In this document: positions 19,244-56,702 of the stretch, in pieces
How positions within the stretch are numbered: the first letter of the stretch is position 1
How the letters are laid out: each line of letters begins with the position of its first letter
NCBI GenBank assembly: GCA_956465555.1
Contig: OY101119.1
Coordinates: 620,001-684,000, forward strand
Origin: Nitzschia sp. pyKryTriq1
Taxonomy: Eukaryota > Bacillariophyta > Bacillariophyceae > Bacillariales > Bacillariaceae
Direction: 5' to 3'
DNA: 64,000 nt
Notes under the pieces: generated by a model
The model's input: the letters and a program-made list of their open reading frames with translations, nothing else
Told to the model about the DNA's origin: nothing
Databases searched by the model: none
Position numbers and translations under genes: made by a program

Positions 19244-20107
19244 TTACAAAATTTCCTCATTTTCATCATTGCTGGAACATGAGGTCTCATCATCAGCAAG
19301 ATCCTTGACCCCCTCAACCGACCCTTGTTCGATGGCAAAATCCCGGCGGTCCAAAACAATCGCGAGCTGATGATCACGCTCCAACTTTTCGCTGCGACGA
19401 CGGAGGAAAGAAATCTGCACCAGCATGATCAATGGCCAGATGGCTGTTCCAGCAATGAAACCAATGCTGCTGACTCCCATTTCGCAGTTGGCGGGAATAT
19501 CTTCGTGGATGATGGCATAAGTCCCTTCCAAATCGGAATGGCAATCATTATGGTGATCATCTTCATCGGAACTCATGCTGGCATCCTCCTCGGCAAAGCC
19601 AAGTTGCACGTAGCTGGGTCCACAGAGGTTCGACTTTGACAGAAGCGCGAAAGGAACAACCATGAGGATGGTCAAGACCATCATCAACGGGACGTAGATC
19701 CCGGCCAGTGAAGCGGTAAGCCTCGAAAGTACCAGCAAGGGCTCCATATTTTTCCACCAACGATTGTAGATCGCAATCACAATGGGTAGGATCAAGAAGA
19801 GACACATCAACCCATCCAACGCATGAAAGAGGATGTGGGCGGCGAAGTGTTGACTACCGAGTGCTTCCTCCTGTTCGTCGGAGAAACGGATATCCTCTTC
19901 CTCGGCAGTTTCGTTGTACAAAATGCTGAAGTGACGAATTCCAAATCCAACCTCGGTGACGTTCATGCTGAGGTCATCTTCATTAGATGGAAGCTGCCTG
20001 TACAAGGAGTCCGAGGCATGTAGAACTGCGCCTAGAAAAATGGGCCCCATCAGAATAGTTGCATGAGCCAGTGCCTCAAAAACGGCTTTGATAGAAATAA
20101 CAGGCAT
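19244..20107 (-). CDS. Four-TM membrane protein of unknown function
   Basis: A 287-residue protein starting at the ATG 20107-20105 (M-P-V-I-S), the first ATG of the frame. Four hydrophobic segments: about residues 9-30 (ALAHATILMGPIFLGAVL), 88-112 (ILFHALDGLMCLFLILPIVIAI), 126-152 (SLAGIYVPLMMVLTILMVVPFALL) and 210-232 (IGFIAGTAIWPLIMLVQISFL). The loop between the first two carries acidic residues and possible N-glycosylation sites (NVT, NET). Another loop is Asp/His/Ser-rich, and the cytosolic tail is acidic and Ser-rich. No family is recognised. Its 5' end faces the tRNA locus about 0.3 kb away. Confidence 0.65.
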   Translation of the reverse strand: MPVISIKAVFEALAHATILMGPIFLGAVLHASDSLYRQLPSNEDDLSMNVTEVGFGIRHFSILYNETAEEEDIRFSDEQEEALGSQHFAAHILFHALDGLMCLFLILPIVIAIYNRWWKNMEPLLVLSRLTASLAGIYVPLMMVLTILMVVPFALLSKSNLCGPSYVQLGFAEEDASMSSDEDDHHNDCHSDLEGTYAIIHEDIPANCEMGVSSIGFIAGTAIWPLIMLVQISFLRRRSEKLERDHQLAIVLDRRDFAIEQGSVEGVKDLADDETSCSSNDENEEIL

Positions 20108-20387
20108 AGTTTCAGTTGTGTTTCCGCTGTGCTTTCTTGATTGTCGTGCGTGTATAAAGAAAAAATTGTGAGATTTGAGACGAGCGAGCCATGGATCTTT
20201 CTGTGCCCAGATGTCGCAAGCGGGAGTCAAATCTTCATCTCGCTCTGCAACAACGTTCACGGTGTATGTATTCTACTCAAGGTAATAAAACATCCAGTTG
20301 GTACGAATTTCCTGGAACAAAAGCACCCACTCGTGCCTTGCTTTACCGCTTTGGGCAGTCCTTCGAGTCGAAAATTGGGTAAAATGC

Positions 20388-20392
20388 AAAAA
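20388..20392 (-). terminator. RNA polymerase III T5 terminator
   Basis: Five consecutive T residues on the minus strand start 5 nt after the end of the 5'-half segment of the permuted tRNA (after the trailer CTTCC). This is the usual minimal Pol III stop and fixes the direction of transcription. Confidence 0.75.
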
Positions 20393-20397
20393 GGAAG

Positions 20398-20475
20398 CTG
20401 CAATCGAACGCTCTACCTCTGAGCTATGCGTGCGTAGAAAGCACGCAACGTGAATCGAACACGTGACCATTCGAA
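20398..20475 (-). tRNA. Circularly permuted tRNA-Cys(GCA)
   Basis: On the minus strand the 3' half comes first: T38, TCGAA (20474-20470), variable TGGTC, T arm ACGTG-TTCGATT-CACGT (20464-20448), 3' acceptor TGCGTGC (20447-20441) and U73 (20440). A 6-nt linker TTCTAC follows, then the 5' half: acceptor GCACGCA (20433-20427), TA, D arm GCTC-AGAGGTA-GAGC, G26, TTCGA (20408-20404), TT, anticodon GCA (20401-20399) and G37. When swapped, acceptor 7/7, D 4/4, anticodon 5/5 and T 5/5 pairs are perfect, giving a 72-nt cloverleaf. GCA and U73 are both tRNA-Cys identity elements. Leader AAGC (20483-20480) can pair with trailer GCTT (20398-20395) beside the junction, as a bulge-helix-bulge needs. No T arm or matching 3' acceptor follows the 5' half, so an ordinary tRNA reading fails. 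Confidence 0.88.
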
Positions 20476-20505
20476 TAATGCTTGGTTGTTCGAATGTCGA
20501 ATCAA

Positions 20506-20519
20506 ATGTATATAATATT
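20506..20519 (-). promoter_or_regulatory. TATA-like element upstream of the permuted tRNA
   Basis: An AT-rich TATTATATACAT run on the minus strand lies about 30 nt upstream of the first tRNA nucleotide, followed by CAA-containing sequence (ACAACCAAGC). Upstream TATA and CAA motifs are common at plant and algal tRNA genes. The internal A-box-like (D arm) and B-box-like (T arm) elements are in reversed order here. Confidence 0.45.
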
Positions 20520-20728
20520 GTTTTAGTTTAATTCTCGCTCCCAACAACTTTTGGACTTTGGACCTCGAACAGAGGCAGGCGGGGGAGGCGGCGGAAAAGA
20601 GGAACCAAGAAAAAAGGTCTTCTTTTCTCATTTCGTTACGTTGGCAAGTCGCAAGTCCTTCTCGCACTCCAAGGATCATCATCGATCAAGCATAAAGCAG
20701 AACATCGCAGAAGAAACAAAAGAAGAAA

Positions 20729-21466
20729 ATGACATTCAAGGTTGTTACCGAAGAAAGTGGGGTTCCTGATACGATGGTGGACGGTAAGCCGACCTTGGTG
20801 TACTGGAACATTGTTGGGTTGGCGCTCCCTATCCGGCTGGCCTTTGTCTATGCCGGTGTCGATTTTGTTGACATTCGAATCGAGGCAGGTGACCCGTCAG
20901 GCGATAACTTCAACAAAGCTTATCCTCCCGCCAAAGCGGGTAAGCTATCCAAGATCATGAGCTTTCCAAATCTTCCCTATCTCCTAGACAGCGACGTTGC
21001 GATTGCCCAGACCAATACGATTCTTCATTTCGTTGCTCGCAAGTATGGTTTCGTTTCGGCACAAGAGCACATGACCGATTACTATTGTGACCAGTTGACG
21101 GACATCGAGTCTGAGATGGTACGACTCATGTACGGCAAGAGTGTAGATGCTGTTGTGCACTGGTACACGACGAGTGCCCCAGTCTTTCTTGCCAAGTTCT
21201 CAGAGATATTGAAGAGTGGAGGGAAAGGTTTTTTGACTGGTGACGCCCCGCGAATCGATGATTTCAAGCTCTACTCAGTCCTGCATAAATTGTGTGTTCT
21301 TCAAGGAGATTTAGGATCTGACGAGACAAAGTCCATCGTCACTGACGATTTGCTTGAGTACATGAAACGTGTTGAGGAGCTTCCAAAAATCAAGGAGTAT
21401 CTTGCAAGCCCGGATAACCTTCCCAAGCCCATCAACAATCCAATCGCAAACTGGATTGGAAAGTAA
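20729..21466 (+). CDS. Glutathione S-transferase
   Basis: A 245-residue single-exon protein with the cytosolic GST layout. A thioredoxin-like N-terminal domain (about residues 24-110) has the strand-helix LVYWNIVGLALPIRLAF, whose Tyr is the likely glutathione-activating residue, and the cis-Pro block FPNLPYLLDSDVAIAQTNTILHFVARKYG, in which AQTNTI stands for the usual QS-x-x-I glutathione-binding motif. An all-helical C-terminal domain follows (about 120-230) with the GDAPRIDDFKLYSVL segment matching the family's conserved N-capping block. Overall it resembles the mu/sigma side of the family. A 20-residue extension precedes the fold. Conjugation or isomerase activity is likely but the substrate is unknown. 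Confidence 0.9.
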   Translation: MTFKVVTEESGVPDTMVDGKPTLVYWNIVGLALPIRLAFVYAGVDFVDIRIEAGDPSGDNFNKAYPPAKAGKLSKIMSFPNLPYLLDSDVAIAQTNTILHFVARKYGFVSAQEHMTDYYCDQLTDIESEMVRLMYGKSVDAVVHWYTTSAPVFLAKFSEILKSGGKGFLTGDAPRIDDFKLYSVLHKLCVLQGDLGSDETKSIVTDDLLEYMKRVEELPKIKEYLASPDNLPKPINNPIANWIGK

Positions 21467-33241: not shown

Positions 33242-33594
33242 GTGTTCGAATAACTACATCGAACGTCCACGGAACGACGGACGGACGCGACCAGCGTTCG
33301 CAATTACGCACGATCACGCACGACGCACGTTTCGATCACGACCCAGAGATTCATTCTAAGACCCTCTGAGACAGTCTATGATCCTCCAAGAAACTATAAG
33401 AAGCCCGCAGACTTCTATCGATATACATGTCAACGATTCAAGAAAAGTAGAAATGAACAAAAGTTCATTTCATCAGTTAGAGCAAGAGCTCATTAATTTA
33501 AGATAGCGCACTTCGTTATCCCACAGTCAAATTAGTCCTTTAGCCCGAATCCCTGAGCCGCTAGCCACTGCCTAGAACTCACGGATTTTAACAT
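33242..33594 (+). repeat. 353-bp repeat element, copy 1
   Basis: Identical to 33636-33988 as far as read (offset 394 bp). It begins GTGTTCGAATAACTACATCG and ends ACGGATTTTAACAT. Near its middle it holds a perfect hairpin: GAAATGAAC, loop AAAA, GTTCATTTC (33450-33471). No coding frame spans it. Confidence 0.85.
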
Positions 33595-33635
33595 GAACGG
33601 ATGGTAATCAACTCACTGCCTACTCGCGAGAGGGA

Positions 33636-33988
33636 GTGTTCGAATAACTACATCGAACGTCCACGGAACGACGGACGGACGCGACCAGCGTTCGCAATTA
33701 CGCACGATCACGCACGACGCACGTTTCGATCACGACCCAGAGATTCATTCTAAGACCCTCTGAGACAGTCTATGATCCTCCAAGAAACTATAAGAAGCCC
33801 GCAGACTTCTATCGATATACATGTCAACGATTCAAGAAAAGTAGAAATGAACAAAAGTTCATTTCATCAGTTAGAGCAAGAGCTCATTAATTTAAGATAG
33901 CGCACTTCGTTATCCCACAGTCAAATTAGTCCTTTAGCCCGAATCCCTGAGCCGCTAGCCACTGCCTAGAACTCACGGATTTTAACAT
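33636..33988 (+). repeat. 353-bp repeat element, copy 2
   Basis: Second identical copy, 41 bp after copy 1, with the same internal hairpin (33844-33865). Identity of the copies points to a recent duplication or insertion. An older, diverged relative of its 3' part is at about 3785-3885. Confidence 0.85.
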
Positions 33989-50911: not shown

Positions 50912-53900
50912 TTACTGAAGTCCTTCAATGGCGAGTAGAGCAGCAATTCGATCGAAGTCTTCTTCACCCCCGTCTCCAGTCATGTCACCAGCACTGGGGA
51001 TTGACGAGTCGTCCGCCTTCTTATCGCTGCCTTTATCACCCATGAACGACGATTTAGATGGTGGTCGTCGAGTCGTACGAGTACCAGAATCACGTTGCCA
51101 CGGTCTTTCAGCTTCCAATTCATCATCCACGAGCTGGTTGTTTAACAGAAGAAATCTGGGATTTTTGCCCATCGGACTGCCACTATTCTGGTCAGGGTGG
51201 GAAGCTGGAAGCGGGCATTCTGGAACCGCGCTTGTATTCGGGCTGTCTGGTACTACAGAGAAACGCCCGAGATAATTCACAGAAGAGGATCCTCCGCGTC
51301 GTCCCTTATTCGTCGACACGGGCTTGCGGGGCGAGGATTCGTGTGCAGAGAAGGGGGAGGAAATTTTTGACATCGGAGAAAAGAGGTACTCGTGACCACT
51401 TTGTCGTACTTGTACCTTGGCCGAAGTGGGCGACCCATCAACTGTATTTTTCTTCATGTTACTCTCCGTCAGGAGACCCAGTAGCCGGGAATCGCGATCT
51501 TCATCGTCGAACTTCTCTGCATGCAAAGGAAGTATGTTCCTACTCTTTGACCCGACGTCCTTGCTCGATCCTTCCCCAAGGGCACTCAAGAGCCGTAGGT
51601 TGTGCTCCTCTTCATTGAACTTCTCGTCGCCAAGGCCGAAACCTCGGCGATTGCCGTTTCCGTTCTTAGCAGAAGAATTATTTGTGTCCTGTGATATTAA
51701 CATGATACTGTTGAAAATTTCCATGTCGTCGAGCACCTGTTCACCCCTCAACCCAACGCCAATTTTCCGCGGTTGCCGAGTGTCACCTTCTTTCAACTTC
51801 ACAGTGCGAGACGCGTCAATACCTGCAAAAGTAGTCTCTTCGTCGACCTTTTCTCCGAACAGAGAGCTAAAAAACGATTTTGCCTTTTTGGTACTAACTG
51901 ACGTCGTGCTAGGGGCCACTATTGTCGAAAATTCATCTTGGACTTTCTCAGGTAGAAGATTGCCAAGAAATGATACCGGTAACCGACTGGAAGCTGACTT
52001 GTTGGGTGTTGCTGAGGGCAAGGTTGACATTTGGTCCATCATAGCATTGCTGCAATTATTGGAACTATAATTTTGTGGGCCGTTCGCGGTATCTGATGGC
52101 TGCCTTTCATTCACGTCCTGCTGCTCGGGCTCTTTGTCTTTCTTCTCATGGTTCTTGTACGTAATCACATCAGGAGGGTCATTTCTGTGGGGGTTATCAT
52201 GTATGTCGGCGACCTGATGCGCATTTGGCGCCAATCTTGTCGATAACCACTGAAAAGGTACAAATTGGATGGTAGAGCCCTTTTCCGGGGGATGCGATTC
52301 TGGGAGAGTTGTATCCATCGATATATTGTCTGGATCTGCCATTCGATATCTGGTCAAATTGAAGTCCCCTTCGCTTTTCACACTTCCAGTTTCTTCTGCT
52401 AGTCCAGCTGTGAGCCATTCAAACGCTGATGTTTTCCTTTCTTGTCGTTTTGTCAATATCGGGTTCCTTGTTGAGTAATCCATCGTGTATTCTCGGTGAT
52501 AGTCAAACCGTTTACGACATACATCACAACTGCCATTTATGAGGATTCTGAGTTCGTGGCATTCCATCACAGCTGTGTCACGCTGTTCCATCAACTTCTT
52601 GATCTTCAGTTCGAGGTCTTTTGCACGGTCATCGTCTGGTTTTAGTATCCGTATGTGAGACCCCGTGAAATGATTTCTACGTTCGAGGTCACTATTTTCA
52701 ACCTCAAGCATTTGTACAAGAGCCTGGCTCAATGCCAGTTTCTTCTTGAGATCGAGAATCTCATTTTCGGTGCCAAGGGTGTATTCCTGCGTCGCGTGAA
52801 ACATTGAGGCTAGAGTTTCTCGACGGTCTTCCAGCTTCCTTCGAAGAAGTGTCCGCCGTGATGCTTGCCGAACAATATGCCTATCTTCCGATTGCGTAGT
52901 CATGTCGTCCTGCTCATCTTGACATGCTTGGTCTTCGTCAGCTTTTGGAGGAGAAGTATCAGGAGCAGAGACATCGACTGGGTGATGATTGAATAGGTTG
53001 ATTTCAGGGCGAGTGCCCGATGGATCAGTGACATTTTGTGAACGTTCAGGAAGTTTGACCTTGTCGTGAGATGGCGGTTTCTCTGTTTGTTTCACGTCGC
53101 TCTCTTTCTTTCTCGAAGCAATCCTTTCGTCACCGGGAGAATGGTTGGCATTTCGGGATCGTTCAGCAAGCTGGATTTGATCGTCGTGAGCTGGCTGCTT
53201 CGCTGTTGCCTTAACATCGTTCTCTTCGTTTGTCGAAGCTTTTTCCTCGTCATTAAGAGGGCGATGATTGAATGCCGTTAATTCGGGGCGTGTATCAAAA
53301 GGGCCATTGGGCATTGTTCCTTGACGAGGCACCGCTACAAACGACTCTTCAGTGTGTGGCGTCTCTGACTGGTTCGCATCGCTTCGTTCTTTTCTCGAGA
53401 CCTGCTGCTCTACCATTGGAGATGAAAGCTTTACCACCCTTTCATTACCCTCAGATATGCTTCGATCTTTGGGGGGTTCTGTGTTTTTCTTATTTATGGA
53501 GGGTGGATCAGTTTTTGAAGAATCATGGCGGGAATGCTTCGAAACCCGCTGCCATCCAAAATTCGAATCGTTTCTAATACTTCGAGAATTCTTGGATCCT
53601 TTCCCGTCGCGAGACCTCCGAGGCTTCTTTCCTTGTTTCGAAGAATCTTTCCTCACTTTTTTGGATTCCTCGAAAGGCCTATACGGCGTCTTTTTTTCTG
53701 GACCTTTGCCTGTCTTCTCTCCTTTGGGTTCCTCGTTATCTTCTTGAGAAATGACAGAGGTGTGACTTTTGGTGCGTTTTTCTTCATTTTGTCTATAGGA
53801 GCCTCTTGGATTTGAATGAGAATGCACAGGATTGACTCCATGCCACTCATGCTTCTGCTGCGTATCCAACGGTTCCAACTCTTCTGGGTCCTCGATTGGC

Positions 53901-56137
53901 TGATGTGTACCAGGTATTGAAATCCTCTGCTTTAGCACCAGGATCGGTTCTTTTGACTGCGAGTCATCATCCTCGTCCGCGACTGGTGCATCATAGATGG
54001 GATATGCACTCATTGGAGCTACATTTTTCGTTTTGGCTTTGGCTTTCGAGCTTGTTTGCTCGGTGGTAGGGGGTGTCAAGTCATCATATCGTGGCGAAGG
54101 GGATACAACAGTTATGCTTTCTATCTGAAGTTCTGTATGATCTTCATTTTGACGATACAAATTGTGATCATCATGGCTTCTTTTCATTGCACTGTTGATG
54201 TCATGCCACTCCCTTCTTGTTTTTCCGGTCTCTCTGCGTTCCTGACGGTTATCAAAAACCCGTATCTTTTCGAGCGCGCCACTTGCATCAGGTGCATCAA
54301 AAACCATGTCATCCACTAAATCCTGCTGCTTCCTAGTAGATTCTTCCAAGCTCCGTGACAATATAGATTTCCGTTTTGGCCCGCCTTCATCGTCACTTTG
54401 GTCTTCCATGTAATCTTTAGTCGTGTCGAGTCTGGTGGAAAATGCTTTTGCTGTGTCTTCTTCGACTTGGTGCCATTCATCCTTAGTCTTTCTCGTGGCC
54501 TTTCTCTCCTTTTTCGAAAGTACCTTGGTAATTTTGAGTGCCCCGGTAGCATCTGATGTTTCTTGGATTGTAGCTTCAACCTGACGACGTTGTCTTCTTG
54601 CGTTGTCTTCTAGCTTTTGGGTTTCTCGAGATCTTGGCTTTGCTAGCTCTTCACCTACATCCTCTTCTTCCTCGAGAAAGTCTCGGGCCTTGCTCAAATT
54701 CTCGACGTGAGCTTTTGCCGATTCGCCACTGATTCTGTGCCACTCGCTCTTGATTTTCTTAATTTCTTTTTGCTCTTTCTTGGTCATCACTGCAGTATCC
54801 GCTAGTGCTTCGTAGTTCTCTGGCATTCCTTTGACGAGAGCGCGAAGTTGTTCGTCCTGTTTTTTGAGCTCCTCATCCACCTTTTGTGTTTTTCGAGATT
54901 TGGGGAGGAGGAGAATGTCATCGTCATAGGAGGAGTCATCCTCTTCATCAGCGGAAAGTGCTAGAGGCTGCGATGCCTTCTTTTTATACGCCTCGCCGCC
55001 CACGTCGTGCCAATCAGCGCTCGTCGCCACGTCGTCAAAATCCGACGTGTCTACGCTACCATTCGATTCCTCCAATTCTTCCATTGTTTCCATGGACTGA
55101 GCCATGAGAGCCGCCAATTCCTCCTGCTGCTTTTTTGCCAACTCTTGAGCCATGAGCGTCTCTTTTGACAGTGGACGACGCTTTGCTGCGATGGAAGAGA
55201 GGGAATGCTCCGAGTCGTCAATTGTGATCGGTTGTGGTCGTTGCTGCACTGTTGAACCAGCAGCAACAATTGGCATCCAGCTCATTACATCCATCGGTGC
55301 AGGCACTTGATCCAAAGGAAGAGGGGAAATGTCAGGTGGGCCCACCAGCCCGCCGTCGGGAGATGACCGTTTTGGCTTGACATTTCCCCGCTTGGCCCGT
55401 GTTTCTTGCGTCTTTTTGCTCGAAACGCGAGTTATTGCCCCTGAAGACTTATCGTCACTTTCTACCGGAAACCTAGACGTGGAAGCAGGTTGATCTCCAT
55501 CCATGGCCGCAAAAAAATTTCCATCCCCAAACAAGGCTTTCGAAGGATCTGATAAAATAGGAAAATCGTTCGTCGACTGCGCCTGGTTTCCACTTTCGGT
55601 GGGTTGATTTTTTCTGACATTTCTCGTGTCTAATAGCGACAGGGATCGTTTCCCAAAATCAGAGCTCCCTGTTTCAGAGGTAGTAGTACTTCCGGAACTT
55701 TGTCTCAAATCCACCGTGTGCACTACTAGACTATCCGCTTGCTGTTGTAGCTTGGCCTTGTTTGGCAACTCCCCTACTCGATTTGAGTCGCTTCCCTTAC
55801 TCCCCTTTGAGGACCCGGAGCGCCTTGAAAAGCTTGCTAACATACCAAACAGCCCGGGCCCTTCTGACACGGATGGGATGGTCTCTAAATTCTGAACACT
55901 TGTGATCGACACATCGTCTGTGTCTGAAAGTCCATCCTGCTCCAATCCGGCCATGGCCTCGGAAACACTCTTGCCTTCAAAAATGGGTTTTACGGGTCTT
56001 CCAAACTTCCTGGCGTTGAGATTGATACCCCGAGTCTTCTGTTGCGCTTTGTCCGCTGATCCTTCTTCTTTATGTTGCATTCGAATGATTTCGGCGATGT
56101 CGTCCGAGCCAATGGCTCCTGCAGTGCCAGTAGGCAT
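50912..56137 (-). CDS. Giant coiled-coil/disordered protein with E-W-H repeats (1741 aa)
   Basis: A single exon of 1741 residues from the ATG at 56137. The N-terminal ~350 residues are acidic and Ser-rich. At about residues 370-670 a unit of roughly 85-95 residues is repeated about three times. Each unit has a basic R-x-T-Q-K-type lead, a K/R-rich run (KKEQKEIKKIKS, KKERKATRKTKD, NRQERRETGKTR) and E-W-H-x-I/V (EWHRIS, EWHQVE, EWHDIN). Outlying relatives are DWHDVGGEAYKKK before and EWHGVN after. A coiled coil lies at about 1130-1230 (NEILDLKKKLALSQALVQMLEVENSDLERR), followed by C-D-V-C-R-K-R-F. The tail is disordered, with DDMEIFNSIMLIS and several EKFD/EE segments. No known family. Cytoskeletal or scaffold roles are speculative. 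Confidence 0.85.
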   Translation of the reverse strand: MPTGTAGAIGSDDIAEIIRMQHKEEGSADKAQQKTRGINLNARKFGRPVKPIFEGKSVSEAMAGLEQDGLSDTDDVSITSVQNLETIPSVSEGPGLFGMLASFSRRSGSSKGSKGSDSNRVGELPNKAKLQQQADSLVVHTVDLRQSSGSTTTSETGSSDFGKRSLSLLDTRNVRKNQPTESGNQAQSTNDFPILSDPSKALFGDGNFFAAMDGDQPASTSRFPVESDDKSSGAITRVSSKKTQETRAKRGNVKPKRSSPDGGLVGPPDISPLPLDQVPAPMDVMSWMPIVAAGSTVQQRPQPITIDDSEHSLSSIAAKRRPLSKETLMAQELAKKQQEELAALMAQSMETMEELEESNGSVDTSDFDDVATSADWHDVGGEAYKKKASQPLALSADEEDDSSYDDDILLLPKSRKTQKVDEELKKQDEQLRALVKGMPENYEALADTAVMTKKEQKEIKKIKSEWHRISGESAKAHVENLSKARDFLEEEEDVGEELAKPRSRETQKLEDNARRQRRQVEATIQETSDATGALKITKVLSKKERKATRKTKDEWHQVEEDTAKAFSTRLDTTKDYMEDQSDDEGGPKRKSILSRSLEESTRKQQDLVDDMVFDAPDASGALEKIRVFDNRQERRETGKTRREWHDINSAMKRSHDDHNLYRQNEDHTELQIESITVVSPSPRYDDLTPPTTEQTSSKAKAKTKNVAPMSAYPIYDAPVADEDDDSQSKEPILVLKQRISIPGTHQPIEDPEELEPLDTQQKHEWHGVNPVHSHSNPRGSYRQNEEKRTKSHTSVISQEDNEEPKGEKTGKGPEKKTPYRPFEESKKVRKDSSKQGKKPRRSRDGKGSKNSRSIRNDSNFGWQRVSKHSRHDSSKTDPPSINKKNTEPPKDRSISEGNERVVKLSSPMVEQQVSRKERSDANQSETPHTEESFVAVPRQGTMPNGPFDTRPELTAFNHRPLNDEEKASTNEENDVKATAKQPAHDDQIQLAERSRNANHSPGDERIASRKKESDVKQTEKPPSHDKVKLPERSQNVTDPSGTRPEINLFNHHPVDVSAPDTSPPKADEDQACQDEQDDMTTQSEDRHIVRQASRRTLLRRKLEDRRETLASMFHATQEYTLGTENEILDLKKKLALSQALVQMLEVENSDLERRNHFTGSHIRILKPDDDRAKDLELKIKKLMEQRDTAVMECHELRILINGSCDVCRKRFDYHREYTMDYSTRNPILTKRQERKTSAFEWLTAGLAEETGSVKSEGDFNLTRYRMADPDNISMDTTLPESHPPEKGSTIQFVPFQWLSTRLAPNAHQVADIHDNPHRNDPPDVITYKNHEKKDKEPEQQDVNERQPSDTANGPQNYSSNNCSNAMMDQMSTLPSATPNKSASSRLPVSFLGNLLPEKVQDEFSTIVAPSTTSVSTKKAKSFFSSLFGEKVDEETTFAGIDASRTVKLKEGDTRQPRKIGVGLRGEQVLDDMEIFNSIMLISQDTNNSSAKNGNGNRRGFGLGDEKFNEEEHNLRLLSALGEGSSKDVGSKSRNILPLHAEKFDDEDRDSRLLGLLTESNMKKNTVDGSPTSAKVQVRQSGHEYLFSPMSKISSPFSAHESSPRKPVSTNKGRRGGSSSVNYLGRFSVVPDSPNTSAVPECPLPASHPDQNSGSPMGKNPRFLLLNNQLVDDELEAERPWQRDSGTRTTRRPPSKSSFMGDKGSDKKADDSSIPSAGDMTGDGGEEDFDRIAALLAIEGLQ

Positions 56138-56702
56138 GATGGCGACGCGCTGGCTTCTTCAATAGCTATTCTGAATGAATGAGTGAAAATCGTAGCCTGA
56201 GTTATCGTACCGCTCTCATTGTACAAGACTTTGGAAGTTAGAGTTTGTATGGCCTGCTTTCAGTATGGAAGGAGCTGACTTGTACTATTGTTAAAAGTAT
56301 CAAGCAGCCATCTCTTTGATTGAAAGAACAGTTGTCGTTGTTGTTCTTCCTGCTCGAGATGGATGGAAATACCGGTACATATGGGTCCGAAGTCCAAAGG
56401 TCATCGCGCGAGGATTGAAGGATGACGGATGACCTACCAGGATAGTAGTCTACTGAGTCGTCGATGGGCTAAACTTTTAGATTTCCCGCCAAATTTCGAC
56501 GCAAGCGCGCGTAGCACCTCACACAGGGGATACCGGTTCTGTACATATGATACTGTACTGTTCTCCTCCTATCTGCAGACTTGGAATGCCCTCTATTGGT
56601 ACTACTACGTTGTAATAATTCGATTTGACCAAGGAGCTCTGTGTTTTTTTATAAAAAGTCACGGACATAGTGGCCCTGGCTTACGCATCGCCACAAAATA
56701 AA
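56138..56702. other. Divergent promoter region
   Basis: The gap lies between the giant-protein gene (minus) and the multi-TM gene (plus). A TTTTTTTATAAAAAGT run at about 56643-56658 lies 45 bp upstream of the first ATG and could be a TATA box. No gene is seen. Confidence 0.45.

Follow-up and report, generated by a model that had tools for sequence, protein, structure and literature searches.

A circularly permuted tRNA-Cys(GCA) gene in the nuclear genome of a diatom

Some tRNA genes of algae and archaea have their halves in reversed order, and the accessible part of the review PMC3978253 tabulates 34 permuted genes from six algae and one archaeon and describes their circular intermediate. Permuted tRNA-Ser genes are known from chlorarachniophyte nucleomorphs, a second nucleomorph included, as given in the available text of PMC4494063. 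The initial annotation of the locus studied here had listed none from diatoms, and we found no report of a permuted tRNA in a diatom or any other stramenopile in the open-licence literature, as far as its accessible text extends. Its account of known cases is to be supplemented by Auxenochlorella, for which a preprint reports permuted tRNAs in its available part (PMC12633428, preprint), and by the tRNA-Cys(GCA) genes with a 37/38 junction that are tabulated for the prasinophytes Ostreococcus lucimarinus, O. tauri and Micromonas pusilla (PMC3978253). In the present study, we describe what is apparently the first permuted tRNA gene in stramenopiles. With high confidence, we regard it as a functional nuclear gene for cytosolic tRNA-Cys(GCA) that is circularly permuted (type II, 37/38). 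Its mature product can probably arise only if the transcript is closed to a circle and then opened at another point, and it is probably the sole nuclear source of this tRNA.

The gene occupies positions 20475-20398 on the minus strand of the window (the whole stretch of 64,000 nucleotides that was analysed), which is part of contig C5 in an assembly of 40.65 Mb and 20 contigs. Its 3' half (36 nt) comes first, followed by a linker of 6 nt and then by the 5' half, also of 36 nt; all three lie between two divergent open reading frames, 19244-20272 on the minus strand, which has no Pfam match at E 0.001, and 20696-21466 on the plus strand, a glutathione S-transferase. The following features are all on the minus strand. 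A TATA-like motif, TATATA (20509..20514), stands 37-39 nt upstream of the 3' half and is likely an upstream promoter element of RNA polymerase III. The leader AACAACCAAGCATTA (20476..20490) adjoins the 3' half and could pair with the anticodon loop or the trailer. The 3' half (20440..20475; tRNA-Cys positions 38-73) holds the 3' strand of the anticodon stem, the variable loop, the T arm, the 3' strand of the acceptor and the discriminator U73. Judged by sequence, its T loop contains the B-box core GTTCGATTC (20452..20460), named by what we take to be the B-box consensus and placed upstream of the A box. The linker TTCTAC (20434..20439) stands between the acceptor strands, CCA is not encoded, and removal of the linker would follow circularisation. 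Its length of 6 nt is inside the range of 1-74 bp that the available tables give for permuted genes (PMC3978253). The 5' half (20398..20433; positions 1-37) supplies the 5' strand of the acceptor, the D arm, the 5' strand of the anticodon stem, the anticodon GCA (20399..20401, read by script from the coordinates) and G37. Its D arm includes the A box TAGCTCAGAGG (20416..20426), compared with a consensus that is presumably the standard one. The trailer CTTCC (20393..20397) and a T5 run (20388..20392), a likely terminator of RNA polymerase III, complete the locus. The reversed halves around TTCTAC, as they had been annotated, were confirmed both by direct reading and by script. The word ATTCGAA occurs on the minus strand at 20476-20470, across the start of the 3' half, and again at 20495-20489, 19 nt upstream in the leader region; this repeat is perhaps a remnant of an earlier copy, or due to chance.

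After the halves are swapped, the four stems are complete and all 21 pairs (7+4+5+5) are standard, so the mismatch-free cloverleaf claimed in the initial annotation is upheld, and the usual conserved tRNA bases, as generally listed, are in place. The anticodon GCA and U73, both of which are present, are cysteine identity elements. ARAGORN likewise reported tRNA-Cys(gca) once the 78-mer was declared circular, and again for the swapped 72-mer, in agreement with the isotype first assigned; it returned no gene in the linear 78-mer or in the whole window, and Rfam gave nothing at the permuted gene in the window as it stands. For a search aware of permutation, which had been proposed for the whole genome, we built a covariance model from 18 other nuclear type I tRNAs of the genome, after these had been rearranged in silico at 37/38 and given random linkers, and the permuted tRNA-Cys gene was left out of the training set. 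In the window this model had a single match, full length, at 65.8 bits (E 2.2e-19). It was further run on 73 of 82 loci (257,737 bases, partly overlapping, with the gene's own locus included), which together with the window make up its coverage. Among the 164 matches at E up to 10 over these loci, the permuted gene was the top match at 65.8 bits, followed at 35.2 bits by a match that straddles two ordinary tRNA genes standing side by side on contig C19. Most of the other matches come from ordinary tRNA genes, where the model fits one half, and it is therefore the score gap, not the E-value, that sets the permuted gene apart. The fold of the swapped 72-mer reached a z of -2.46, with 4 of 200 shuffles as good, and that of the precursor stood out from its shuffles only to a moderate degree (z -1.82, equalled by 8 of 200). 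In the minimum-energy folds of both forms the acceptor, T and anticodon stems are present, and the D stem is shifted, with 3 bp against the expected 4 bp.

The signals around the gene were compared with those of 36 ordinary nuclear tRNA genes, some of them near-identical copies, of which 30 came from the Rfam search and six from the plant-query and D-arm-plus-anticodon searches described below. A T run of at least 4 is found within 40 nt downstream of every one of the 36, and T5 or longer within 25 nt downstream of 28. Upstream, a TATA between -60 and -20 is present in 16 of the 36, in 14 of these 16 at -29 to -34. By chance, TATA occurs in 5.8% of random 43-bp stretches of the window and T5 in 2.9% of random 25-bp stretches. 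In the permuted gene, TATA lies at -39/-37, a few nucleotides further out than the usual -29 to -34, and T5 lies at +6. Both elements had been pointed out in the initial annotation, and the comparison bears this out; by their sequence and position they resemble the signals of ordinary tRNA genes and appear to be of the same kind. In addition, the A and B boxes are intact and stand in reversed order, an order that is described for permuted genes in the available part of PMC3978253.

The tRNA complement of the genome was surveyed for an ordinary tRNA-Cys gene. Of the 63 matches that the Rfam tRNA search had in the assembly, 30 are nuclear, 21 lie on C19 and 12 on C20; a looser cut-off gave the same result. 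Contig C20 is the plastid (psbA), contig C19 is assigned to the mitochondrion by its size and its set of tRNAs, and each has its own tRNA-Cys. In all, 37 ordinary nuclear tRNA genes for 17 amino acids were found, of which the Rfam search caught 30; the seven beyond it are three for Asp, one each for Glu, His and Trp (the last with an intron), and one Met gene taken as initiator. The swapped 72-mer, searched against the genome, returned only the two halves of the permuted gene. A plant query of nine tRNAs (Cys, Asp, Glu, initiator Met, His, Trp, Pro, Gly and Tyr) picked up five further ordinary nuclear genes, with identities of 78-91%. For Asp, Glu and initiator Met it recovered a gene of the isotype queried and for the other six it did not, yet His and Trp genes exist; its tRNA-Cys had no match in the genome. 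The D-arm pattern TAGCTCARNGGTAGAGC matched three places in the assembly, the permuted gene and two tRNA genes on plastid contig C20. A D-arm-plus-anticodon pattern had 18 matches, fewer than the 23 of its reversed control, which makes most of them chance, and of the 18 loci only L075 and the permuted gene hold a tRNA. ARAGORN read L075 as Gly(tcc); it is read here instead as Trp, with anticodon CCA and an intron, and has an Rfam match. Patterns of other types gave 2 matches against 0 in the control for His, one of the two being a tRNA gene, and 5 against 4 for Gly-GCC. Two of the five Gly-GCC matches, identical to each other and 545 bp apart at C15:797668 and C15:798213, resemble tRNA-Gly(GCC) genes. 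Introns beside the anticodon occur in the ordinary nuclear genes at L041:501-592 and L042:501-593 (both elongator Met), L075:1484-1574 and L040:501-609; for the last of these ARAGORN reports Val(tac) and an intron of 36 nt.

The initial annotation had asked whether an ordinary tRNA-Cys(GCA) gene exists elsewhere. In the nuclear contigs none was found by the Rfam, swapped 72-mer, plant Cys, D-arm or D-arm-plus-anticodon searches, all of which are lossy; elsewhere in the assembly there is the one gene on each organelle contig. Similarly, no nuclear tRNA-Pro or tRNA-Tyr in ordinary form was found by the lossy Rfam and plant-query searches, with the D-arm-plus-anticodon pattern used in addition for Tyr; these genes may have been missed, or may be intron-bearing or permuted. 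As judged from these sequence searches, the permuted gene is probably the only nuclear tRNA-Cys source of the cell. This status is likely rather than proven, because the searches miss genes and did not find Pro and Tyr either. A wider reading, towards which we lean, is that the only nuclear tRNA-Cys gene is permuted and all cytosolic decoding of UGU and UGC would pass through a circular RNA, and that permuted tRNA-Cys genes of stramenopiles and prasinophytes would go back to repeated invention or to transfer from an algal endosymbiont.

The host is a diatom, as had been stated: the matches of the neighbouring protein, the plastid DnaB and D1 all point to this group. It may be a raphid pennate. 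The protein of the neighbouring gene has 44 relatives, most without an organism name, and the named ones are from Epithemia clementina (43%) and Skeletonema marinoi (39%). Its best match (98%) has the source mmetsp, presumably the marine protist transcriptomes. In viral contigs, this protein had no relative and the permuted-Cys pattern had 0 matches. Among the 120 matches listed of 8000 for the plastid DnaB are Nitzschia anatoliensis (75%) and Kryptoperidinium foliaceum (77%), the latter a species with a plastid of diatom origin; one further match of these 120, labelled Cyanobacteriota MAG (84%), is taken as a misnamed plastid. D1 was closest to chain 6jlu_A, which we take to be from Chaetoceros, and a plastid CP47-like query had no match among solved structures at E up to 1e-100. 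Elsewhere in the window, 33242-33988 is a perfect tandem duplication (394-bp unit, 1.9 copies, 100% matches), and 50912-56158 on the minus strand is an open reading frame of 1748 codons, with a strong AT skew of -0.27 over 52001-56000.

The exact point at which the halves are joined has to be weighed against neighbouring positions, since two mutually exclusive registers can be drawn for the structure at the splice site. The helix AAGC/GCTT, which had been proposed as the central helix of a bulge-helix-bulge, does exist: as AAGC/GCUU, with 4 bp between leader and trailer, it is part of the minimum-energy fold. However, it takes up G37, the exon base for a cut at 37/38, and in this it differs from a strict bulge-helix-bulge at that junction. 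Drawn strictly for 37/38, the structure has U33, G34 and C35 paired to the leader, a U32-U mismatch, AG^C and UA^U as its bulges, and two outer pairs. This makes 3 of 4 central and 2 outer pairs, which 3.1% of random-flank trials also reach; 3 of 4 central pairs alone are reached by 20%. The computed energies are -20.8 kcal/mol for the strict model, -23.5 with the ends unpaired and -27.1 for the AAGC/GCUU register. Two elongator tRNA-Met genes, the two scored of the four intron-bearing genes, have 3/4 and 4/4 central pairs in the strict geometry. On these models the splice-site signal is weak, compatible with splicing and no proof of the junction; because the stable helix uses G37 and the strict 37/38 geometry costs energy, the junction is uncertain by one nucleotide. 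Joining at 36/37 or 38/39 would place A37 U38 or G37 C38 in the anticodon loop, not G37 U38, and either would yield a tRNA of 72 nt with 7 nt in its anticodon loop, just as 37/38 does; the pairing of G37 with the leader in the most stable helix also speaks for such a shift. We consider it unlikely, given that 37/38 is the usual eukaryotic splice site, that in the accessible tables of PMC3978253 the prasinophytes have 18 of their 19 permuted genes joined there, and that the strict geometry at 37/38 does reach three of its four central pairs.

Two further explanations concern the locus as a whole. Tandem duplication followed by loss of the outer parts has been proposed as the origin of permuted genes in the available text of PMC3978253, and the same events could have left a rearranged and silent relic, in which tandem tRNA-Cys copies were broken, a 3' part and the next 5' part remained, and a normal gene persists elsewhere. 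The search for such a normal gene does have gaps (Rfam missed 7 of the 37 ordinary genes). Nevertheless, a relic is improbable, for 21 of 21 stem pairs are intact and the conserved bases are in place, the two halves end together at the anticodon loop, a TATA and a T5 accompany them, and no further tRNA-Cys-like sequence was found in the nuclear contigs. Still less credible is that the assembly is wrong and has exchanged the halves of an ordinary gene. The locus was judged from the assembly, but such an error would have to yield the 6-nt linker, the TATA and the T5, with its breaks exactly at the ends of the halves; moreover, the 151-nt locus matches itself only, and the neighbouring gene has diatom relatives. 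For the reading that we prefer, a working permuted gene, the simplest origin would lie in the tandem duplication of a tRNA-Cys gene with an intron, followed by loss of the outer halves, and the leader and trailer would then be remnants of the intron.

By analogy with Cyanidioschyzon and the prasinophytes, we infer a processing pathway for this gene. RNA polymerase III would use the upstream TATA-type promoter, transcribe leader, 3' half, linker, 5' half and trailer, and stop at T5; the signals themselves are seen in the DNA. In the folded precursor, the linker would form the loop that closes the acceptor stem, and both free ends would come to lie at the anticodon loop; the acceptor, T and anticodon stems appear in the computed fold. 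The tRNA splicing endonuclease could then trim leader and trailer, and a ligase of the Trl1 type would join G37 to U38 into a 78-nt circle. From this circle, RNase P and tRNase Z would excise the linker, CCA would be added afterwards, and the product would be charged with cysteine. As judged by domain matches, the genome carries a candidate splicing endonuclease and a candidate Trl1-type ligase. PF01974 (splicing endonuclease) has two matches, one of them over the family cut-off, and PF09511 (Trl1-type RNA ligase) has one, over the cut-off and in a long open frame. In the scanned 876-aa part of this frame the ligase domain alone was seen, and the kinase and phosphodiesterase domains were not detected. 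PF01139 (RtcB) had no match in the genome, and the control search was positive in 9 of 14 genomes. Trl1 homologues are present in diatoms according to the available part of PMC4090602. The elongator tRNA-Met genes of the same diatom are like the permuted gene in splice position, with an intron at 37/38, and differ from it in having their halves in the normal order; presumably the same endonuclease and ligase serve both.

The known permuted tRNA genes, as far as the accessible sources go, belong to red algae, green algae, green-derived nucleomorphs and one archaeon, and a diatom nucleus adds a further major eukaryotic group, in a genome where 37 other nuclear tRNA genes were found in the usual order. 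The finding also indicates that a permuted tRNA-Cys gene can slip past ordinary annotation, since ARAGORN and Rfam were blind to it here. Some diatoms can be transformed, and the permuted arrangement and the ligase are thus open to genetic testing.

Compared with described systems, the gene shares some features with each and differs from each. The permuted tRNAs of Thermofilum pendens also have reversed halves, but they are archaeal, with the junction at 59/60 and CCA encoded, as tabulated in the accessible part of PMC3978253. The permuted tRNA-Ser of Bigelowiella natans is like the diatom gene in its 37/38 junction and its very short linker, 5 bp in the same tables (PMC3978253); the chlorarachniophyte case differs in being of isotype Ser and in belonging to a nucleomorph of green algal descent, not to the host nucleus (available text of PMC4494063). 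The permuted genes of Cyanidioschyzon have an upstream TATA and a downstream T run, as in the diatom, and the pathway with a circular intermediate has been demonstrated there; unlike the diatom gene, they show several junction positions and many ectopic introns, and none of the 11 tabulated is a tRNA-Cys (PMC3978253, accessible part). Homologues of TFC1 and TFC3 were not identified in that alga, by the account in the available part of the same source (PMC3978253). The closest counterparts are the tRNA-Cys genes of the prasinophytes, which by their tabulated features are alike in isotype, anticodon, 37/38 junction, half order and nuclear location. Maruyama et al. 2010 is reportedly the source of these genes. 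The likeness rests on such features, and the linkers are 26, 38 and 12 bp in O. lucimarinus, O. tauri and M. pusilla, respectively, against 6 in the diatom, as the accessible tables give them. With the isotype and most likely the junction common to the diatom and the prasinophytes, a shared or a repeated origin of permuted tRNA-Cys genes becomes testable.
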